Shown here: piece by piece, positions 15,227 through 27,911 of the stretch
Layout: every line of letters begins with the position of its first letter
Numbering within the stretch: the stretch's first letter is position 1
From: Skermanella pratensis
GTDB lineage: Bacteria > Pseudomonadota > Alphaproteobacteria > Azospirillales > Azospirillaceae
Assembly: GCF_008843145.1 (NCBI RefSeq)
Contig: NZ_CP030265.1
Span: forward strand, 2,714,001 to 2,778,000
DNA length: 64,000 nucleotides
Direction of reading: 5' to 3'
The notes under the pieces: generated by a model
The model's input: only the letters and a program-made list of their open reading frames with translations
What the model was told of the DNA's origin: nothing
Database searches by the model: none
Translations under genes and position numbers: made by a program

Positions 15227-16615
15227 ATGGCCGAACGCTGGACCCCGAACACCTGGCGCTCGAAGCCCGTCAAGCAGATGCCCTTTTATGCCGACCAGGA
15301 CAAATTGACGGCGGTCGAGCAGCGTCTGTCCAACTATCCGCCGCTGGTTTTCGCGGGCGAGGCGCGGCGGCTCAAGGCGGCCCTAGCGGACGTGGCCCGC
15401 GGCAACGGTTTTCTGCTCCAGGGCGGCGACTGTGCCGAGAGCTTCGCCGAATTCCATCCCAACAACATCCGCGATACCTTCCGCGTCCTGCTTCAGATGG
15501 CGGTGGTGCTGACCTTCGGCGGCGCCACGCCGGTGGTGAAGGTCGGGCGCATGGCGGGACAGTTCGCCAAGCCGCGCTCGACCGACACGGAGACCATCGA
15601 CGGCACCGAGCTGCCGAGCTACCGTGGCGACATCATCAACGGTTTCGACTTCGACCCGGCCTCGCGCGAGCCCGATCCCGACCGCATGGTCCAGGCTTAC
15701 AACCAGTCCGCGGCCACGCTAAACCTGCTTCGCGCCTTCGCCCAGGGCGGTTATGCCGACCTGCACAAGGTTCACCAATGGAACCTGGGCTTCGTCGAGC
15801 GCAGCCCCGCCGGCGAGCGCTACCGCGACCTGGCCGACCGCCTGGACGAGACGCTGAACTTCATGGCGGCCTGCGGCATCACCGCGGAGACGACGCCCCA
15901 GCTGCGCGAAACCGACTTCTTCACCAGCCACGAGGCGCTGCTGCTCCCCTATGAGGAGGCGCTGACCCGCGTCGACAGCACCACCGGCGACTGGTACGAC
16001 GTGTCGGCCCACATGCTGTGGATCGGCGACCGTACCCGCCAGCCCGACCACGCCCATGTGGAGTTCCTGCGCGGCGTCAAGAACCCGATCGGGCTGAAGT
16101 GCGGACCGACCAGCGACCCCGACGAGCTGATCCGCCTGATCGACATGCTGAACCCGGCGAACGAGCCGGGACGCCTGACGCTGATCGCGCGCATGGGTTT
16201 CGAGAAGGTCCAGGACAAGCTGCCGGCCCTGATCCGCAAGGTCCAGCGCGAGGGGCGCGTCGTCGTGTGGGCGTGCGATCCCATGCACGGCAATACGATC
16301 AAGTCGTCCACCGGCTACAAGACCCGGCCGTTCGACCGCATCCTGTCGGAAGTGAAGGACTTCTTCTCCGTCCACCAGGCGGAGGGGACCCATCCCGGCG
16401 GCGTCCATTTCGAACTGACCGGCCAGGACGTGACGGAATGCACCGGCGGCGCCCAGGCGATCACCGACCACGCCCTTGCCAAGCGCTACCATACCCACTG
16501 CGATCCGCGCCTGAATGCCAGCCAAGCTCTTGAACTGGCGTTCCTTATCGCGGAAGGTCTGAAGCGCAGCCGCCAGCAGCAGGACCGGGAACGCCGGATC
16601 GCCGCGGCGGAGTGA
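15227..16615 (+). CDS. class II 3-deoxy-7-phosphoheptulonate (DAHP) synthase
   Basis: A 462-residue enzyme of the plant-like class II type. It condenses phosphoenolpyruvate with erythrose 4-phosphate as the first step of the shikimate pathway. [10 protein letters not shown] near residue 65, [12 protein letters not shown] and [18 protein letters not shown] near the C-terminus are hallmark active-site and metal-binding segments. GGAGG (15214-15218) supports the ATG at 15227 over the in-frame GTG at 15191. The symbol varies (aroF, aroG or aroH), so I leave it blank. Confidence 0.94.
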
Positions 16616-16630
16616 CCGCACGGAACCAGC

Positions 16631-16657
16631 CCCGGAACGGCCCCCAGCCGTTCCGGG
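16631..16657 (+). promoter_or_regulatory. 10-bp hairpin between DAHP synthase and nicotinate phosphoribosyltransferase genes
   Basis: CCCGGAACGG (16631-16640) and CCGTTCCGGG (16648-16657) are perfectly complementary around a 7-base loop, 15 bases after the DAHP synthase stop. No U-run follows. It could attenuate read-through or protect the upstream mRNA. It also argues that the next gene begins downstream of it rather than at the overlapping GTG. Confidence 0.6.
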
Positions 16658-16677
16658 ACCAACAAGAGCGCCAAATC

Positions 16678-17832
16678 TTGGACAGTCGAGACAACGACCG
16701 CAGCCAGCAATCCCTTCGGCCCTCGGTATCCGACATCGACCGGTGGACCGATACCTATTTCCTGCGGACCAAGGCCACGGTCGGCCGGTTCGGCGACAAG
16801 CGGGTCACCTACGCGATCTTCATGCGCCGCCCCGTCGTCTCGGCGCCCCGCCTCGCGGTGGACTGGCTCCAGGGGGTGGCCCGCGAACGCGGGTTCGAGG
16901 TCGAGGTGGACCTGCTCCACACCGAGGGCCGCTGGATCGGCGCCGGCGAGCCGATCCTGTATATTTCCGGCCCACTCTATCATCTTGTCGACCTGGAAAC
17001 CCTGCTGCTGATGAAGCTGGGTCCCGCCTGCGTCTCCGCCTACAACGCCTTCACCATGTGCGCCGATCTGCCGAAGGTGGCGTTCCTCGCCATGGACGCC
17101 CGGCACTGCGCCGGCACAGAGATGGCGGAGATCATGGCCTATGCGGCCAGCGTCGGCTCGGCCCGCGCCAAGCGGAAGGTCGGTGCCATAGGATTCATCG
17201 GCAACGCCACCGACGCCACGGCCCATTATTTCGGTCGCTCCGCCGGCATGGGGACCATGCCGCACGCCCTGATCGGCTATGCCGGATCGACCGTGCGGGC
17301 GGCCGAGATGTTCCACGAGACCTTTCCCGACCAGAACCTGACGGTGCTGGTCGACTATTTCGGCCGGGAGATCACGGACAGCCTGGAGGTCTGCCGCCGG
17401 CTGCCGCACCTGGCCGAGGCGGGCCGGCTGAGCATGCGGATCGACACGCCGGGCGGGCGCTTCATCGAGGGGCTCGACCCGCCCGGCTCCTACGCGGTGC
17501 TGGAACGGCATGTTCCGGCCGCGATCCGCGGCTATCGCGACGAGACCCAGCTCCGCTACCTGATCGGCACCGGCGTTTCGGCCGCGGCGATATTCCACCT
17601 GCGGGACGCGCTGGACGATGCCGGCTTCGACAAGGTCAAGATCGTCGCCAGCAGCGGCTTCAGCCCGGCGAAGTGCCGTATCATGGCGGAGGCTCAGGCT
17701 CCGATCGACGTCATCGGAACCGGCAGCTACCTGCCGGAGCGATGGACCGAGACCTACGCGACCGCTGACATCATCGAATATGACGGTGAGAAGCGGGTCA
17801 AGGTCGGCCGCGAGTTCCTGTTCCGGAAATAG
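16678..17832 (+). CDS. pncB: nicotinate phosphoribosyltransferase family protein
   Basis: A 384-residue protein of the short archaeal-type NAPRT subgroup. The family makes nicotinate mononucleotide from nicotinate and PRPP in NAD salvage. Visible features are TDTYFLRTKATV at the N-terminus, the FIGNATDATAHYF and GTMPHALIGYAG segments with the family His, and a C-terminal DVIGTGSYLP phosphate-binding loop. The start is uncertain. A GTG at 16612 overlaps the upstream stop, but the first 22 residues would then be encoded by the intergenic hairpin, so I prefer the TTG at 16678. Whether it is a true NAPRTase or a paralogue is not settled by sequence alone. Confidence 0.78.
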   Translation: MDSRDNDRSQQSLRPSVSDIDRWTDTYFLRTKATVGRFGDKRVTYAIFMRRPVVSAPRLAVDWLQGVARERGFEVEVDLLHTEGRWIGAGEPILYISGPLYHLVDLETLLLMKLGPACVSAYNAFTMCADLPKVAFLAMDARHCAGTEMAEIMAYAASVGSARAKRKVGAIGFIGNATDATAHYFGRSAGMGTMPHALIGYAGSTVRAAEMFHETFPDQNLTVLVDYFGREITDSLEVCRRLPHLAEAGRLSMRIDTPGGRFIEGLDPPGSYAVLERHVPAAIRGYRDETQLRYLIGTGVSAAAIFHLRDALDDAGFDKVKIVASSGFSPAKCRIMAEAQAPIDVIGTGSYLPERWTETYATADIIEYDGEKRVKVGREFLFRK

Positions 17833-20266: not shown

Positions 20267-21892
20267 ATGTCGAACGATCTGGATCGCGAAGAAAGGCTTG
20301 AGTTCCTTGGCATCGGTGACGAAACGCGATCGGCCCTGAAGCATTTCGCACCCGTCGTGGAAGCGACGCTGCCGAAGACCCTGGACAGGTTCTACGAGCA
20401 TCTTGCAACCAATGCCGAGATGCGGACGATGCTGGCGGGAGTCTCGATCGACCGCCTGAAGGAGGCCCAGCGCCGCCACTGGACCAGCCTGTTCTCAGGG
20501 ACCTTCGACGAGGCCCAGCTGGAGCGAACCATCCAGATTGGCACCACGCACCAGCGCATCGGCTTGGAGCCGCGCTGGTACATCGGCGGATACGCCCTGG
20601 CGATGGGTGACCTGATGGATGCGGCGGTCACCCGGCATCGCTGGCAGCCGGCCCGGTTGAGGCAGGTGCTCCGGGCGATCGTCCAGACCGTCTGTCTCGA
20701 CATGGATCTGGCGATCTCCTGCTACATCGAGAGCGGCGACCAGAGCCGGCAGAAGGAACTGTGGCGACTGGCCGACATGCTGGAGCGGGAAGTCCATTCG
20801 GTGGTGTCCCAGGTCGCCGAGCGCGGCGGCCACGTGTCCGACATCGCAACCCAGACCTCGGCGGCGATCGACCGCGTGGCGGGGAACGCGACAGCCGTTG
20901 CCTCGGCGGCGGAGCAGGCCACCGCCAGCTTCGAAACCGTTGCCGCGGCGGGCGAGCAGCTTTCCGCCTCGGTGTCGGAGATCAGCCGGCAGGTCAGCGT
21001 CTCGCGCACCGTCACCCGCCAGGCGGTGGACCAGGCGGGATCGGCCAACCAGTCGGTTCAGGGCTTGGCGATGGCGGCGGGGGAGATCGGGCAGATCATT
21101 CGCGTCATCAACGAGATCGCCGGCCAGACCAACCTTCTGGCCCTGAACGCGACGATCGAGGCGGCGCGTGCCGGGGAAGCCGGCAAGGGGTTCGCCGTCG
21201 TCGCCAACGAGGTCAAGGCGCTGGCCGCCCAGACCGCGCGGGCCACGGAGCAGATCTCCGCCCAGATCTCCCGCATCCAGGCGGAAACCGAGAAGGCGGT
21301 CTCCGGTATCCAAAGCATCGTCGGCGTGATCCACGAGGTGGAGGCGATCTCCGCCGGCATCGCCGCCGCGATCGAGCAGCAGACCGCCTCGACGGGAGAG
21401 ATCAGCCGCAGCGTCATGGAGGCCGCCGCCGGCACGCGGCAGGTCGCGGCCAGCATCACCGAAGTGGCCCATGATACCGGCGAGGCGTCGGAACTGATGC
21501 ACGAGGTGCGTTCCGAAACCGGCACCATGACCCAGCATGTCGGTCAGCTTCAGAACGAGATCGACGGGCTGATGAGCACGATGAGGACGCACGAGGTATT
21601 CGACCGCCGGAGACACCGGCGGCACGCCGTTGATTTCTCGGCGACGGTATCCGCTGGCGGTGACAGGAGGCAGGTCGGGCTGGTCAACCTGTCGGCGGGC
21701 GGCGTCGGGCTCGTCGGGACCGTCACCGGTTCGGCCGGCGGGATGGTCGAGCTTGTCCTTCCCGGACTGGAGGGCGCGATCCGGGGGCAGATCCTCTCGA
21801 CCGAGCGCGACATCACCCACCTGAAGTTCGAGCGCACGCTGACGTCGGCCGAACTGACGGGCCTGCTTCGGTCGGCCCGGATGGTGGCATGA
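20267..21892 (+). CDS. globin-coupled soluble chemoreceptor with C-terminal PilZ domain
   Basis: A 541-residue cytoplasmic protein with no membrane segment. Residues 1-160 are a protoglobin sensor. [17 protein letters not shown] contains the proximal haem ligand His95, as in HemAT oxygen sensors. Residues about 165-440 form the MCP signalling coil with tip [22 protein letters not shown]. The C-terminus (about 447-541) carries basic RRRHRR followed by NLSAGG (475-480), the two halves of the c-di-GMP-binding PilZ signature. The protein should couple haem-gas sensing and c-di-GMP to the chemotaxis array. The start at 20267 has GGAGGCGGG immediately upstream. Confidence 0.92.
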
Positions 21893-21975: not shown

Positions 21976-23640
21976 ATGACCGACCGCCTCGCCATCGCCC
22001 TGGCCCAGTTGAACCCGACCACGGGTGCCATCGACCAGAACATCGACCGTATCCGCACGGCGCGGGCGGAGGCGTCCGCGCGAGGGGCGGAACTGGTGGT
22101 CTGCGCCGCCATGGGAGTCTCGGGGCAGCCGGTCGAACAGCTGGTCCTGAAGCCCTTCTTTCTGGACGCGGTCGAGGAGGCGGTCCGGGAGTTCGCCCGG
22201 GAAACGGCAGACGGCGGGCCGGGAGTGCTGGTCGGCGCCCCTTGGCGGATGGATGGGCAGGTCTGCAACGCCGTCCTGCTGCTGGACGGCGGCCGGGTGG
22301 CTACCATCCGGACCAAGCATGTGCTGGCGGACGGGGCGCCGTTCGACGAGCGCCACCTGTTCGCCGCCGGCCCGGTTCCCGGTCCGGTCAATTTCCGGGG
22401 AGTCCGCCTGGGCGTCATGATCGCCGAGGACATGGCGACCGCCGACGTCGCCGAAGCGCTCGGCGAATGCGGAGCCGAAATCCTGGTGGTCGCCGGGGGC
22501 GACGCGGTCGACCTGGACATCCAGGACCGCCGGATCAACCGCGCCGTGGCCCGGGTGGCCGAGACCGGGCTGCCGCTGCTCCATGTCAATCAGGTTGGCG
22601 GGCACGGCGAATTGGTGTTCGACGGCTCCAGCTTCGTGCTCGGCGCCGACCGCGCCCTGCGGATCCATGCGCCCGCCTTCCGGGAGAGCCTGACGGTGGC
22701 CCGGTGGGAACGCGGCGGAGACGATGGCTGGATCTGCCACGAGGGTGAACTGGCGCCGCCGCCGTCCGGGCCGGCCGCCGCATATCAGGCGCTGATGCTG
22801 GGCCTGCGCGACCATGTCAGGAAAACCCGGCGAAACGGCGTTCTGGTCGGCCTGACAGACGGAATCGACAGCGCGCTGACGGCCGCGCTGGCAGTCGATG
22901 CATTGGGGCCGGAGCGGGTCCACTGCGTCCTGCTGCCGTCATCCGACACCGGCCGGGAGACGCTTGAGGATGGGCGGGAAGTGGCGGAACTGCTGGGCTG
23001 CAGGATAGACGAGATCCCGATGGGGCCGGCATTGCGGGCGATCGATGCAATGCTCGCCCCGGCCTTCGCCGGTCGCGACACCGGCAGAGCGGAGGAAGAC
23101 CTTCGGGGGAGCCTGCGCGGCGCCGTCCTGGTGGCCCTCGCGGAGAAGTTCGATGCCCTTGCGCTGTCGGCAGCCAACCGGACCGACGTGGCGGTCGGAC
23201 GGTCGATGCTGCACGGGGACCTTTGGGGCGGTTTCGCGGTGCTGAAGGATGTCTACCGCACCAACGTCGTGGCCCTTGCCAACTGGCGGAACCGGAGTCT
23301 GCCCGACGACGGCAGGGGGCCGGCGGGCCGCGTCGTGCCCGAGCGGGTCATCACCGATACCGCGGCCACCGAACGGCGGGCCGGCAGGGACGGGGATTGG
23401 GCGATGCCGCCGGGCGACCTGCTGGACGATATCCTCCGCTGCCTGCTTGACCAGGAGATGACCGTGGCCGAGATCATCGAGCGCGACCATGATCCGGTGA
23501 TGGTGGACCAGGTCTGGCGGTTGGTGGTCAGGGGGGAGCACCAGCGCCGCCAGCTTCCGCCCGGCGTCAGGATCAGCGGCCACGGTTTCGGATCCGGCCA
23601 CCGGCTGCCGGTCGTCAACGGGTTCACTTCGATCCTGTGA
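21976..23640 (+). CDS. NadE-like protein (glutamine-dependent NAD synthetase fold) with degenerate active sites
   Basis: A 554-residue protein with the full NadE architecture: an N-terminal nitrilase-type amidase (about 1-260) and a C-terminal NAD-synthetase ATP-pyrophosphatase domain (about 270-554). The body is clearly NadE (ETGLPLLHVNQVGGHGELVFDG, HGDLWGGFAVLKDVYRT), but motifs needed for catalysis have changed. The amidase Glu of FPEL is Ala45 (CAAM). The nucleophile Cys of ICED is Ala150 (IAED). Lys114 remains. The P-loop SGGIDS reads TDGIDS (294-299), GNKSE reads ANRTD, and PSAEL/DSLPPYD reads AATER/DWAMPPGD. Glutaminase activity should be lost and synthetase activity is doubtful. The frame is intact, so it is a preserved pseudoenzyme or repurposed paralogue. 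It lies 83 bases after the globin-MCP. Confidence 0.85.
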   Translation: MTDRLAIALAQLNPTTGAIDQNIDRIRTARAEASARGAELVVCAAMGVSGQPVEQLVLKPFFLDAVEEAVREFARETADGGPGVLVGAPWRMDGQVCNAVLLLDGGRVATIRTKHVLADGAPFDERHLFAAGPVPGPVNFRGVRLGVMIAEDMATADVAEALGECGAEILVVAGGDAVDLDIQDRRINRAVARVAETGLPLLHVNQVGGHGELVFDGSSFVLGADRALRIHAPAFRESLTVARWERGGDDGWICHEGELAPPPSGPAAAYQALMLGLRDHVRKTRRNGVLVGLTDGIDSALTAALAVDALGPERVHCVLLPSSDTGRETLEDGREVAELLGCRIDEIPMGPALRAIDAMLAPAFAGRDTGRAEEDLRGSLRGAVLVALAEKFDALALSAANRTDVAVGRSMLHGDLWGGFAVLKDVYRTNVVALANWRNRSLPDDGRGPAGRVVPERVITDTAATERRAGRDGDWAMPPGDLLDDILRCLLDQEMTVAEIIERDHDPVMVDQVWRLVVRGEHQRRQLPPGVRISGHGFGSGHRLPVVNGFTSIL

Positions 23641-23746
23641 CGCGCCGCGGAACTGGCAGGGCTGCAATCCGTCGCATCGCTAATGCGAGTGACTTGCAGT
23701 AAATTTTCGGCCACGGTAACTAGTCCGTTCCGAGGCCTTGAAGCGC

Positions 23747-25078
23747 ATGCGTTCTTCCACGATCACCCCTTCCTATGTCCTGATGGCCCATGCCCTGGTC
23801 GGCAGTCTGGTTTGCAGCCTGCTTGCCGGCGCTCCTGCCCTGGCGGAACAGAAACTCGATCCGGCGGCGGCATCGGTGCTGGCGGACTATGTCAGGCCGG
23901 ATTCAGTGCCTTTTCCGGACGACAATCCCCATAGCCAGGCGAAGGCCGAGCTGGGCCGCAAGCTGTTCTTCGACGCCAGCCTGTCCGGCGCGGGGGACCG
24001 GTCTTGCGCCACCTGCCACGCGCCGGTCTCCGGGTGGCAGGACGGGGTGCCGACCCACCAGGGGCTGGACGGGACGCCGCTGGGACGCCGGACGCCCTCG
24101 GTGCAGGATGCGGCCTGGGGCGAGCTGTACTTCTGGGACGGCCGTGCCGGCAGCCTGGAGGAGCAGGCGCTCGGCCCGGTCCAGAACCCGCGCGAGATGA
24201 ACCAGACGCTGGAAGGGATGGTTCGGACCCTCGAGGCCAACCCGGAGTATCCGCCCCTTTTCGCCCGGGCCTTTCCCGAGGACCCGAGGATCACGCCGGT
24301 CACCGTCGCCAGGGCGCTTGCCACGTTCGAACGCACCCTGGTGTCGGGCGTGACCTCCTTCGACCGCTGGGTCGCGGGCGACAGCGGCGCCGTCAGCGAG
24401 GAGGCGAAGCGCGGATTCGAGGTATTCACCGGACCCGCGGGCTGCGCCTCCTGCCACTCCGGCTGGCAGTTCACCGACCATGCCTTCCATGATATCGGCC
24501 TGCCCGGCGAAGACCTCGGGCGCGGCGCGATCCTGGGCTTGCCTGAACTTAACCACGCCTTCAAGACCCCGCCGCTGCGGAACGTCGCCGACCGCGCCCC
24601 CTACATGCATGACGGCTCGATCGGAACGCTGGAGGGGGTCGTCGAACATTACCGCAGCGGCATCGTGCGCCGGGACACCCTGTCGCCCGACCTGCCGCGG
24701 ATCGACGCCCTGTCCGACCGTGAAAAGTCCGACCTGATCGCCTTCCTGCGCAGCCTCAGCCCGGATCCCGCGACCGCGGCGGACAGCCTCGCCGCCAGTT
24801 CGGCGCCGAAGTCGGAAACCTCGGATACCCTGACGATCGTGCAGAAGAACAAGCAGTTCAGCCACCGCCATGTCCAAGTCAAGGCCGGCGAGGTCCTGAC
24901 GATCCTGAACCAGGACACCCGGGCGCATAATATCCGCGTGTTCGAAGAGAACATGGACTTCAACAGCGGATACCAGGAACCGGGCGAGCATGTCAGCTTG
25001 CCCTTCACCGAGCCCGGCACCTATCATGTGTTCTGCGGCATCCATCCCAAGATGAAGCTTCGGGTGGACGTGAAGTAG
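23747..25078 (+). CDS. di-haem cytochrome c peroxidase/MauG-family protein fused to a cupredoxin domain
   Basis: A 443-residue exported protein with a signal peptide ending near PALA (residue 33). Haem c sites are SCATCH (Cys87, Cys90, His91) and GCASCH (Cys233, Cys236, His237); PYMHDGS near 287 supplies the usual distal ligand region. The family reduces peroxide or performs MauG-like oxidation in the periplasm. Residues about 361-443 are a plastocyanin-like domain with a complete type-1 copper set: His394, Cys430, His433 and Met436 (FCGIHPKM). The copper domain could be a built-in electron donor. A TTG at 23738 is an alternative start. Confidence 0.88.
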   Translation: MRSSTITPSYVLMAHALVGSLVCSLLAGAPALAEQKLDPAAASVLADYVRPDSVPFPDDNPHSQAKAELGRKLFFDASLSGAGDRSCATCHAPVSGWQDGVPTHQGLDGTPLGRRTPSVQDAAWGELYFWDGRAGSLEEQALGPVQNPREMNQTLEGMVRTLEANPEYPPLFARAFPEDPRITPVTVARALATFERTLVSGVTSFDRWVAGDSGAVSEEAKRGFEVFTGPAGCASCHSGWQFTDHAFHDIGLPGEDLGRGAILGLPELNHAFKTPPLRNVADRAPYMHDGSIGTLEGVVEHYRSGIVRRDTLSPDLPRIDALSDREKSDLIAFLRSLSPDPATAADSLAASSAPKSETSDTLTIVQKNKQFSHRHVQVKAGEVLTILNQDTRAHNIRVFEENMDFNSGYQEPGEHVSLPFTEPGTYHVFCGIHPKMKLRVDVK

Positions 25079-25169
25079 GGCAGGAGGCGGTCCGAGTTTC
25101 GGCCGTTTCGCATGAGGCCGCGGTGTGCTATCCGTGCCGGCCCTGTGTTCCCGAAGCCCGAAGAGATCC

Positions 25170-26513
25170 ATGAGCGTCGCCGTCCGTTTCGCGCCGAGCC
25201 CGACCGGCCAGCTCCATGTCGGCAACATCCGCCTGGCGCTGGTCAATTGGCTGTTCGCCCGCAGCCAGGGAGGCAACTTCCTGTTGCGTCTCGACGACAC
25301 CGACCTGGAACGGTCGACCGCCGAATTCGCCGACGGGATCGAGCGCGACCTGCGCTGGCTGGGGCTGGAGTGGGACCGGTTCGCCCGGCAGTCCGACCGG
25401 CTGGACCGCTACGCGGCGGCGGTCGAGCGGCTGAAGGGCGCGAGGCGCCTCTATCCCTGCTACGAGACGGCGGAGGAGCTGTCGCTCAAGCGCAAGAGCC
25501 TGCTCGGCCGCGGCCTGCCGCCGATCTACGACCGCGCGGCGCTGCGGCTGACTGGCGCGGACCGGGCGCGCCTGGAGGCCGAGGGCCGGACACCGCACTG
25601 GCGTTTCCTGCTGGAGCACGAGCCGGTGGAGTGGGACGACCTTGTGCGCGGTCCGCAGCATTTCCACGGGCGGGATCTCGGCGACCCGGTGCTGATCCGC
25701 GAGGACGGGCGGACGCTCTACACGCTGTCCTCGGTCGTCGACGACATCGAGCTGGGCATCAGCCATGTCATCCGGGGCGAGGACCACGTCGCCAACACCG
25801 CTGTGCAGATCCAGCTCTGGCAGGCGCTGGGCGGACCGGTGCCGGGCTTCGCCCACCTGCCGCTGCTGACCGACGCGACGGGTGCCGGGCTGTCGAAGCG
25901 GCTGGGCAGCATCAGCGTCGCCAGCCTGCGCGACGACCAGGGTATCGAACCGATGGCGATCAACAGCCTGCTCGCCAAGCTGGGCACGTCTGACGCCATC
26001 GAGGCCCGCATGAGCCTGGCGGATCTGGCGGCCGAGTTCGACATGGCCAAGGTCGCCCGCGGCGCTCCCAAGTTCGACCCGGAGGAACTGGCCCGCCTGA
26101 ACGCCCGCGTGTTGCACGCCACGCCTTTCGGGACGGTGGCCGGCCGGCTGGAAGCCTTGGGGTTCGGCGGGATCGACGCCATGTTCTGGGAGGCGGTGCG
26201 GCCCAACCTGTCGCGGCTGGCCGACGTGGCGGAGTGGTGGCATGTCGCGCGCGAGCCGATCGAGCCGACCGTCGAGGACGCGGAGTTGCTGTCCGCCGCC
26301 GCGGCGCTGCTCCCGGCGGAGCCGTGGGACGAAACGACCTGGAGCGCCTGGACCGGCGCCGTCAAGTCGGCCACCGGGCGAAAGGGCAAGGGCCTGTTCT
26401 TGCCGTTGCGCCTGGCGCTCACCGGCCGCGACCATGGACCGGAGCTGAAGAATTTGTTACCTCTGATCGGCCGCGAGCGGGCGGAAGCGCGGCTCGCCGG
26501 CCGGGTTGCCTGA
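25170..26513 (+). CDS. gltX: glutamate--tRNA ligase
   Basis: A 447-residue class I synthetase. The HIGH-equivalent is in [12 protein letters not shown] (residues 8-19) and the KMSKS-equivalent is GLSKRLGS. Alphaproteobacteria usually carry two GltX proteins, one of which charges tRNA-Gln for later amidation. This copy, with the short SKRLGS loop, could be either. The start at 25170 has AAGAG upstream. The end overlaps in-frame start options of cysS, so the two are probably co-transcribed. Confidence 0.93.
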
Positions 26514-26538
26514 AGTGGTTTTGTTTAAGGAAAAACCG

Positions 26539-27911
26539 GTGGCGCTGGATCTTTTCAACACGCTGACCCGCCAGAAGGAACGGTTCGAGCCGCTGGTGCC
26601 GGGCAGGGTGGGCCTCTATGTCTGCGGCCCGACCGTCTATGACTACGCCCATATCGGGAATGCGCGGCCAGTCGTCGTGTTCGACGTGCTGTACCGGCTG
26701 CTGCGCCGGCTCTACGGGGAGGTCCGCTACGTGCGGAACATCACCGACGTGGACGACAAGATCATCGACCGGGCACGGGAGAGCGGGGAAGGGATCGACA
26801 GCGTCACCTCCCGCACGACCGAGGCCTATCACCAGGACATGGCCTCCCTGAACGCCCTGCCGCCGGACGTCGAGCCGCGCGCGACCACCCATGTGGCGCA
26901 GATGATCCGGATGATCGGGCGCCTGATCGCGGCCGGCAACGCCTACGAGGCCGAGGGGCACGTGCTGTTCAGCGTGCCGTCGATGGCGGACTATGGCCGG
27001 CTGTCGCGTCGGTCCCGGGACGAGCTGATCGCGGGCGCCCGCGTCGAGGTGGCGCCGTACAAGCGCGACCCCGCCGACTTCGTGCTGTGGAAGCCCTCCG
27101 CCCGGAGGTGCCGGGCTGGGACAGCCCGTGGGGACGGGGACGGCCGGGCTGGCATATCGAGTGCTCCGCCATGGCGGAGGAGCACCTGGGGGAGACCTTC
27201 GACATCCATGGCGGCGGCCTGGACCTGATCTTTCCTCACCATGAGAACGAGATAGCCCAGTCAGTCTGCGCCCATGGCGGCGCCCCGCTGGCCCGCTACT
27301 GGGTTCACAACGGTTTCCTGACGGTCGAAGGCGAGAAGATGTCCAAGAGCCTGGGCAACTTCTTCACCGTCCGGGACCTGCTGGGCGAATTTCCCGGCGA
27401 GGCGATCCGCCTGACCCTGCTCGGAGCCCATTACCGCCAGCCGCTCGACTTCACCCGGGACGGGCTGAAGCAGGCCAAGGCGACCCTGGACCGGTGGTAC
27501 ACGGCGTTGCGCTCGGTCGAGGACGTGCCAGCGTCCGGGGACGAGGTGCCGGCCGAGGTGATAGCGGCGCTGGAGGATGACCTGAACACGCCGCTGGCGA
27601 TCAGCCACGTTCACGCTGTCGTCACGGCCCTGAACAAGGCGGCGGAACCGGCAGAGCGCGCGGCGCTGAAGGGCGCATTGCTGGGCGCCGGCAGCGTGCT
27701 GGGCCTGCTCGGGCAGGACCCGACCGAATGGTTCCGCGGCGGCGATGCCGGCGGACTGGGCGCCGCGGCGATCGAGGACTTGATCGAGCAGCGCAAGCAG
27801 GCCCGCAAGGCCAAGAACTTCGCGTCGGCCGACCGGATCCGGAAGGAGTTGGCCGACCAGGGCATCGTGCTGGAGGACGGTCCCGGCGGGACCACCTGGA
27901 AGCGGGCTTGA
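26539..27911 (+). pseudogene. cysS: cysteine--tRNA ligase, broken by a 1-base frameshift in this sequence
   Basis: Both halves of a normal class I CysRS are present. The first frame runs from the GTG at 26539 (AAGGA at 26527-26531) with [17 protein letters not shown] and [10 protein letters not shown], and ends in frame at FVLWKPSA. The second frame resumes with [24 protein letters not shown], the zinc-ligand segment [11 protein letters not shown] and KMSKSLGN, and stops at 27911. The break falls in GCCCGG at 27100-27105: restoring one C (GCCCCGG) rejoins the frames as KPSAPEVPGWD. Because CysRS is essential, a sequencing or assembly error in a C run is the likeliest cause. A real mutation with a second cysS elsewhere is the alternative. 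Confidence 0.9.

Follow-up and report, generated by a model that had tools for sequence, protein, structure and literature searches.

NadE makes NAD+ and is pursued as an antibacterial target. Within the window, the whole stretch of 64,000 nucleotides from Skermanella pratensis that was analysed, lies a gene of this family with changes at both active sites, and the question it raises is whether such a gene is still an enzyme, a relic or something kept for another purpose. The original prediction described a protein that retains the NAD-synthetase fold over 554 residues, and the family assignment held, with a match to the curated NAD+ synthase model PRK13981 spanning residues 2-551 (510.9 bits against a cut-off of 479). 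The frame opens with ATG and contains no internal stop (Table 1), and an orphan or chance frame was ruled out by the model scores and the orthologues. Descent within NadE2 (PRK13981) is indicated by this full-length match above the cut-off, by placement in the tree with the NadE2 proteins of the bacterial family and by orthologous position, while the NadE1-type model PRK02628 gave 89 bits, far below its cut-off of 473. The best matches among solved structures were 4f4h, which we take to be the B. thailandensis protein, and 5kha, both glutamine-dependent NAD+ synthetases. PMC7196632 places A. brasilense AbNadE2 among type 2, dimeric NadE, where it clusters with the B. thailandensis enzyme. The window protein corresponds to this published type, sharing with it (AbNadE2, PRK13981, 4f4h, 5kha) the domain order, the length and a locus that is often near gltX, whereas the octameric type 1 NadE1 (M. 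tuberculosis type, PRK02628, 3dla) forms a separate, longer family, of which the window genome holds an intact copy.

Table 1. Features of the nadE2 locus and of the second NAD synthetase gene; coordinates are window positions unless a genome contig is named.
Feature	Position	Strand	Basis or remark
Putative NadE2-type pseudoenzyme gene, 554 aa, full-length open frame	21976..23640	+	ORF, profile matches, dN/dS
Nitrilase-like glutaminase domain, residues 7-242, catalytic residues lost	21994..22701	+	Pfam CN_hydrolase PF00795
Residue 45, Ala for catalytic Glu	22108..22110	+	Alignment to intact relatives
Residue 114, catalytic Lys kept	22315..22317	+	Alignment to intact relatives
Residue 150, Ala for nucleophile Cys	22423..22425	+	Alignment to intact relatives
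NAD synthetase (ATP pyrophosphatase) domain, residues 270-526	22783..23553	+	Pfam NAD_synthase PF02540, 131 bits
TDGIDS (294-299) for ATP-pyrophosphatase P-loop SGG[IVL]DS	22855..22872	+	Alignment
ANRTD for GNKSE	23173..23187	+	Alignment; R-T-D form also in the degenerate Azospirillum clade
Presumed P2-loop segment, residues 461-480, motif K.P[ST]AEL..Q.DQD[ST]LPPY lost	23356..23415	+	Alignment
gltX-like gene, marks the ancestral locus	25125..26513	+	Neighbour at many Azospirillum nadE2 loci
Nicotinate phosphoribosyltransferase-like gene, 4.1 kb upstream	16612-17832		Six NCBIfam NAPRTase models, all below curated cut-offs
Type 1 NadE1	G000:C1:4906522-4908558	-	NF002730, 1093.7 bits

Alignment to intact relatives agrees with the original prediction that Glu45 and Cys150 have both become Ala, that the P-loop SGGIDS reads TDGIDS and that the GNKSE and PSAEL/DSLPPYD segments are changed, and it adds a point missing there, the retention of Lys114. 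The segment at residues 461-480 is, on our assumption, the P2 loop. Section 10 of PMC6946656 describes this loop as a lid on the ATP site and mentions a Tyr that packs against the nicotinic ring; the window-type rows have other residues in place of Y409 and Y413, one of which might be that Tyr. PMC6946656 gives the glutaminase triad of the family as Cys-Glu-Lys, for which the window protein has A150, A45 and K114. It thus differs from type 2 NadE2 in lacking the triad Cys and Glu, the SGGxDS P-loop, GNKSE and the P2-loop motif P[ST]AEL...LPPY, every catalytic signature checked being changed except Lys114; within the P-loop an Asp was gained at 295, and Asp298 and Ser299 are kept. The 3sdb chain of a NadE1 structure shows the same Cys-to-Ala change. 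A45, A150, TDG[IV]DS and A[NT]RTD recur in orthologues from three more genomes (88, 89 and 74% identical), and since these genomes share the changes, sequencing error was excluded as their cause. The protein has the make-up of a pseudoenzyme, an enzyme homologue without essential catalytic residues, and to judge from its residues it is very probably not an NAD synthetase. That it passes the curated NAD+ synthase model despite its changed active sites is a warning for annotation; the Pfam cut-offs were also passed by three further degenerate copies that were scanned.

The window genome, a single contig of 5.87 Mb that is 99.8% complete, contains three PF02540 matches, namely the window gene, NadE1 and a weak match in the frame of a presumably guaA-like gene, and no ammonia-only NadE was seen among them. 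A canonical nadE elsewhere in the genome, on which the original prediction depended, was found in NadE1, which matches 3dla over its entire length (1025 bits) and has intact PEL, Lys, VCED, SGGLDS and GTGDLSE motifs; the absence of any other nadE is ruled out by this intact copy. NadE1, judged by its motifs, is likely the working NAD synthetase of the window genome.

Relatives were surveyed in 82 genomes of the bacterial family (5 of the window genus, 45 of Azospirillum and 32 others). All five genomes of the window genus have an altered NadE2 at the same locus, four of them with A/K/A at the triad positions, TDG[IV]DS and A[NT]RTD (the window-type rows), and the fifth (G003) with Q/R/G at the triad positions, SGGLDS, LNRSD and most of the P2-loop motif. 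Intact NadE2 proteins of Azospirillum share 55-59% identity with the window protein. Judged by the five motifs checked, the orthologue is intact in 19 of 45 Azospirillum genomes and changed in 23; of the latter, 18 were fully changed and full-length, two (G072 and G097) were changed in Cys alone among the motifs checked, one (G060) was partly changed and two encode shortened proteins (440 aa in G080, which has an in-frame stop, and 491 aa in G093), these last two looking like decay in progress. Two Azospirillum genomes (G073 and G095) gave no NadE2 match at E 1e-30, and a third (G069), whose sole NadE2 is an intact one of another type, was counted as being without an orthologue. Among the 32 other genomes one (G010) lacked a NadE2 match at the same threshold and 31 were intact at the motifs, seven of these, from genus g2, being of a more distant type (~600 aa, SGGADS and SNKSE). 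NadE2 is dispensable in the family, as G010, G073 and G095 have no match and G069 only the other type.

NadE1 is present in 47 of the 82 genomes, and NadE2 was altered or missing in 32 of these 47 compared to 0 of the 35 genomes lacking NadE1 (Fisher 1e-11, a value that is only descriptive, because the genomes are related and the independent events few). The four Azospirillum genomes without NadE1 (G068, G071, G074 and G084) all have an intact NadE2, and an intact NadE2 is kept in 15 of the 41 that carry NadE1. Across the wider class NadE1 is uncommon, occurring in 19 of 289 genomes, and among the NadE1 genomes outside the family (n = 17) four had an intact NadE2 and 13 gave no match at E 1e-30. 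Since an intact NadE2 stands beside NadE1 in some genomes, NadE1 permits the change and does not force it.

Selection on the frame was measured as omega with a pairwise Goldman-Yang codon model (our own code) and an LRT against omega = 1. Purifying selection was evident in all three pairs formed by the window genome (G000) and its two nearest relatives (G001 and G002), with omega values for G000-G001, G000-G002 and G001-G002 of 0.090, 0.090 and 0.087 (dS 0.66, 0.60 and 0.45; LRT 231, 232 and 178, respectively); the seven pairs with G003 or G004, in which dS is saturated (2.5 to 52), were left out. Controls in the same three pairs gave 0.032, 0.034 and 0.029 for NadE1, 0.060, 0.039 and 0.045 for gltX, and 0.042, 0.061 and 0.044 for cimA. 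Codon changes between G000 and G001 numbered 130 at the third position compared to 45 and 31 at the others. The degenerate Azospirillum clade showed omega of 0.09-0.17 over ten pairs (LRT 84-214) and the intact Azospirillum clade 0.017-0.061 over eight, the two pairs with G072, which has lost the Cys only, giving 0.052 and 0.061. Degenerate NadE2 has an omega that averages two- to threefold the value of the intact genes, so constraint is relaxed and still far from neutral. This constraint extends to both domains of the protein. A preserved frame under selection, as originally proposed, is borne out by a dN/dS of about 0.09, by the same changes in four of the five genus genomes and by the second occurrence in Azospirillum.

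The raised dN/dS could also be taken as a sign that a redundant gene is slowly decaying, having become dispensable after the arrival of NadE1 and keeping an open frame because loss takes time, and the Azospirillum copies form a gradient that suits such a course, from loss of the Cys only (G072 and G097) through partial (G060) and full change to shortened (G080 and G093) and absent genes (G073 and G095). Nevertheless, omega = 1 was rejected in 13 of 13 degenerate pairs with unsaturated dS (LRT 84-232), all five genus genomes have the frame at full length, and in a simple neutral simulation started from the window gene stop-free runs made up 9.2%, 3.2% and 0.8% at 0.2, 0.3 and 0.6 changes per site, which together make decay an unlikely account.

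Another reading retains catalysis in altered form: the synthetase domain would still adenylate an acid, be it NaAD or a different one, for instance using free ammonia, or the protein would have acquired a new substrate. The synthetase half has a low omega in the three genus pairs (0.09-0.10, with 0.06-0.08 for the glutaminase half), Asp298 and Ser299 are kept, the replacement of KSE by RTD is conservative and was repeated in both degenerate clades, and G072 and G097 have lost the Cys alone among the motifs checked. G003 may be ammonia-dependent, because SGGLDS and most of its P2-loop motif are kept, and G003, G072 and G097 could all still be ammonia-using enzymes. The window protein, however, has Asp at 295, no P2-loop motif and replacements at Y409 and Y413, and 56 of the 218 positions that are near-invariant in 42 intact NadE2 rows were lost in all four window-type rows (136 of the 218 being kept in all four), while an unaltered NadE1 is present in the same genome; we therefore give altered chemistry little credence for the window protein. 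In G072 (L080) and G097 (L094) the glutaminase Cys has become Gly, which makes these two copies candidates for an ammonia-only NadE2 and for the first step on a path of decay.

Whether the two genera lost the active sites once or twice was addressed with a 71-row tree, in which the window genus stands apart from the degenerate Azospirillum rows and two state changes are counted if G060, G072 and G097 are taken as intact. The AU test of a single degenerate clade gave p = 0.078 with all columns, and the single clade was rejected (p = 0.002) when 40 shared-loss columns were removed, a run that also omitted G080, G093 and two rows of the other type. Losses were counted at the 218 near-invariant positions between the 4 window-type rows and 17 Azospirillum rows with Lys-to-Gln, with G003, G014, G060, G072, G080, G093 and G097 placed neither in these two sets nor among the 42 intact rows; 56 positions were lost in the window-type rows, 66 in the Azospirillum rows and 40 in both (hypergeometric 5.6e-14), and 103 were kept in both. 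Part of this overlap of 40 is to be expected, given that it is catalytic positions that are freed. At 12 of 35 ungapped shared losses the same major replacement was found, against 3.98 expected from a BLOSUM-based null (p = 3e-4) and 3.79 from the empirical spectrum (p = 2e-4); these nulls are only approximate and some of the excess may come from GC-biased drift, yet slow decay does not readily explain it. Derived residues shared by both clades are E45A, S294T, K402R, S403T, E404D, E492D and K532R.

So many shared derived residues, together with an all-column test that does not reject one clade at 5%, would also follow if the degenerate forms all went back to a single old paralogue that both genera inherited or that passed from one to the other, which is compatible with the other readings. 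We consider this distinctly unlikely: without the shared-loss columns it is rejected, stepwise intermediates (G097 and G060) lie beside the Azospirillum clade on the tree, and the window genus shares the gltX-cysS neighbourhood with many Azospirillum copies, as vertical descent predicts and from which we infer vertical descent of NadE2. The degeneration in Azospirillum is, on these alignments, most likely independent of that in the window genus. A conserved neighbour common to both degenerate clades was also sought, and only gltX and cysS, among the window genes compared, lie near both; they are common to many intact copies.

The reading that we prefer, and hold to be probable from the sequence comparisons, is that NadE2 of the window genome is a pseudoenzyme kept by selection for a non-catalytic role, in line with the original prediction in that the catalytic residues are lost, the frame is under purifying selection and NadE1 is encoded elsewhere. 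Because the protein is preserved in several species beside an intact second gene, it probably has another job, perhaps regulation. The gene would be a vertical descendant of the family's ordinary type 2 (dimeric) glutamine-dependent NAD synthetase; with a type 1 NadE1 present and able to make NAD+, NadE2 would then have lost the glutaminase Glu and Cys and parts of the synthetase P-loop, KSE and P2 loop, and the folded protein, presumably still a dimer, would have been retained by purifying selection. Its role may be that of a regulatory partner which has kept what NadE2 does apart from catalysis, and which binds PII (GlnB/GlnK/GlnZ) through the glutaminase-like domain and perhaps senses NAD+ or adenine nucleotides, so that the dead NadE2 would buffer or report the PII/NAD+ state instead of making NAD+.

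This PII-linked role is a tentative proposal by analogy, made because published work identifies A. brasilense NadE2 as a target of PII. A 2020 paper (PMC7196632) describes how PII controls NadE, and PMC7646526 reports that the A. brasilense PII protein GlnZ binds both NadE2 and NadE1, that a glutaminase-less NadE was not fished, and that its authors speculate on contact between PII and the glutaminase domain. An allosteric NAD+ site on A. brasilense NadE2, separate from the NaAD site, is deduced by the authors of PMC7196632. The A. brasilense protein is active and inhibited by NAD+ (PMC7196632), whereas the window NadE2 is predicted to be inactive. Two PII genes are present in the window genome (PF00543, above the cut-off), as a PII-regulated NadE would need; against such a role, neither is linked to the NadE2 locus. 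More far-reaching, and likewise only a possibility, is the idea that twice in the family the gain of a second NAD synthetase released NadE2 for a non-catalytic part in signalling. The apparent convergent signature consists of Ala in place of the glutaminase Glu, Thr as first residue of the P-loop and R-T-D for K-S-E, and, if true, a two-fold convergence would imply that both clades acquired the same new function, such as that of a sensor or decoy which responds to PII or NAD+ and is made from a dead biosynthetic enzyme.

A comparable non-catalytic copy of a cofactor-synthesis enzyme is PDX1.2 of plant vitamin B6 synthesis, an unrelated protein in an unrelated pathway, which PMC6829848 presents as a demonstrated regulator, whereas a regulatory role of the window NadE2 is our proposal. 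The NadE2 fold and family are already known; no published NadE pseudoenzyme was found among the matches listed in the open-licence literature, where no paper on Skermanella and NAD synthetase was found either, and the accessible portion of PMC3376133 contains nothing on inactive NadE. NadE2 has apparently lost catalysis twice beside active relatives that are PII targets, a natural separation of catalytic from regulatory roles, and because Azospirillum offers a graded series within one genus, the route from an essential enzyme to a pseudoenzyme is directly testable.

At the place of the nicotinate phosphoribosyltransferase gene said to lie 4 kb away there is a gene resembling one (Table 1), and it is in place at the locus in all five genus genomes. 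Its suggested functional link to NadE2 fared less well and is unsupported beyond the genus, because no copy occurs in the fetched Azospirillum nadE2 loci (mostly ~15 kb); with the gene near NadE2 in the genus and in G006 as well, its closeness is a weak functional clue. Directly upstream of nadE2 (window 20267-21892) lies a Protoglobin-MCP chemoreceptor with a C-terminal PilZ domain, which holds this position in all five genus genomes, and directly downstream (23641-25078) a di-haem cytochrome c peroxidase of the MauG type fused to a cupredoxin-like domain. An inverted block, TCGCAT...ATGCGA, lies within 60 bases past the NadE2-like stop and is conserved in four of the five genus genomes. The sole cysS (cysteinyl-tRNA synthetase) found in the genome (window 26506-27911) is split between two frames, with model positions 1-187 in one and 191-465 in the other, while four relatives have both parts in a single frame; an essential gene may have been misassembled here, or the gene may really be broken.

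An additional NadE2-type gene, whose product has 40-42% identity to that of the window gene, occurs in eleven Azospirillum genomes (L113, L111, L130-L134 and others); the motifs were intact in the seven copies read, and all but one of the eleven genomes carry the degenerate NadE2 too. In Azospirillum sp. B510 this additional gene sits on a plasmid record, and a NadE2-type match was located at 517977-519659 of plasmid NC_013858.1. A scan of genome contigs for close relatives yielded one distant homologue with intact motifs. In a scan of viral contigs (IMG/VR), 20 relatives were found; the 19 whose frames were read (L135-L153) resemble glutamine-dependent NAD synthetases, with SGG[IV]DS present in all 19 and exact GNKSE in 17, and six of these 19 lie on contigs exceeding 400 kb.
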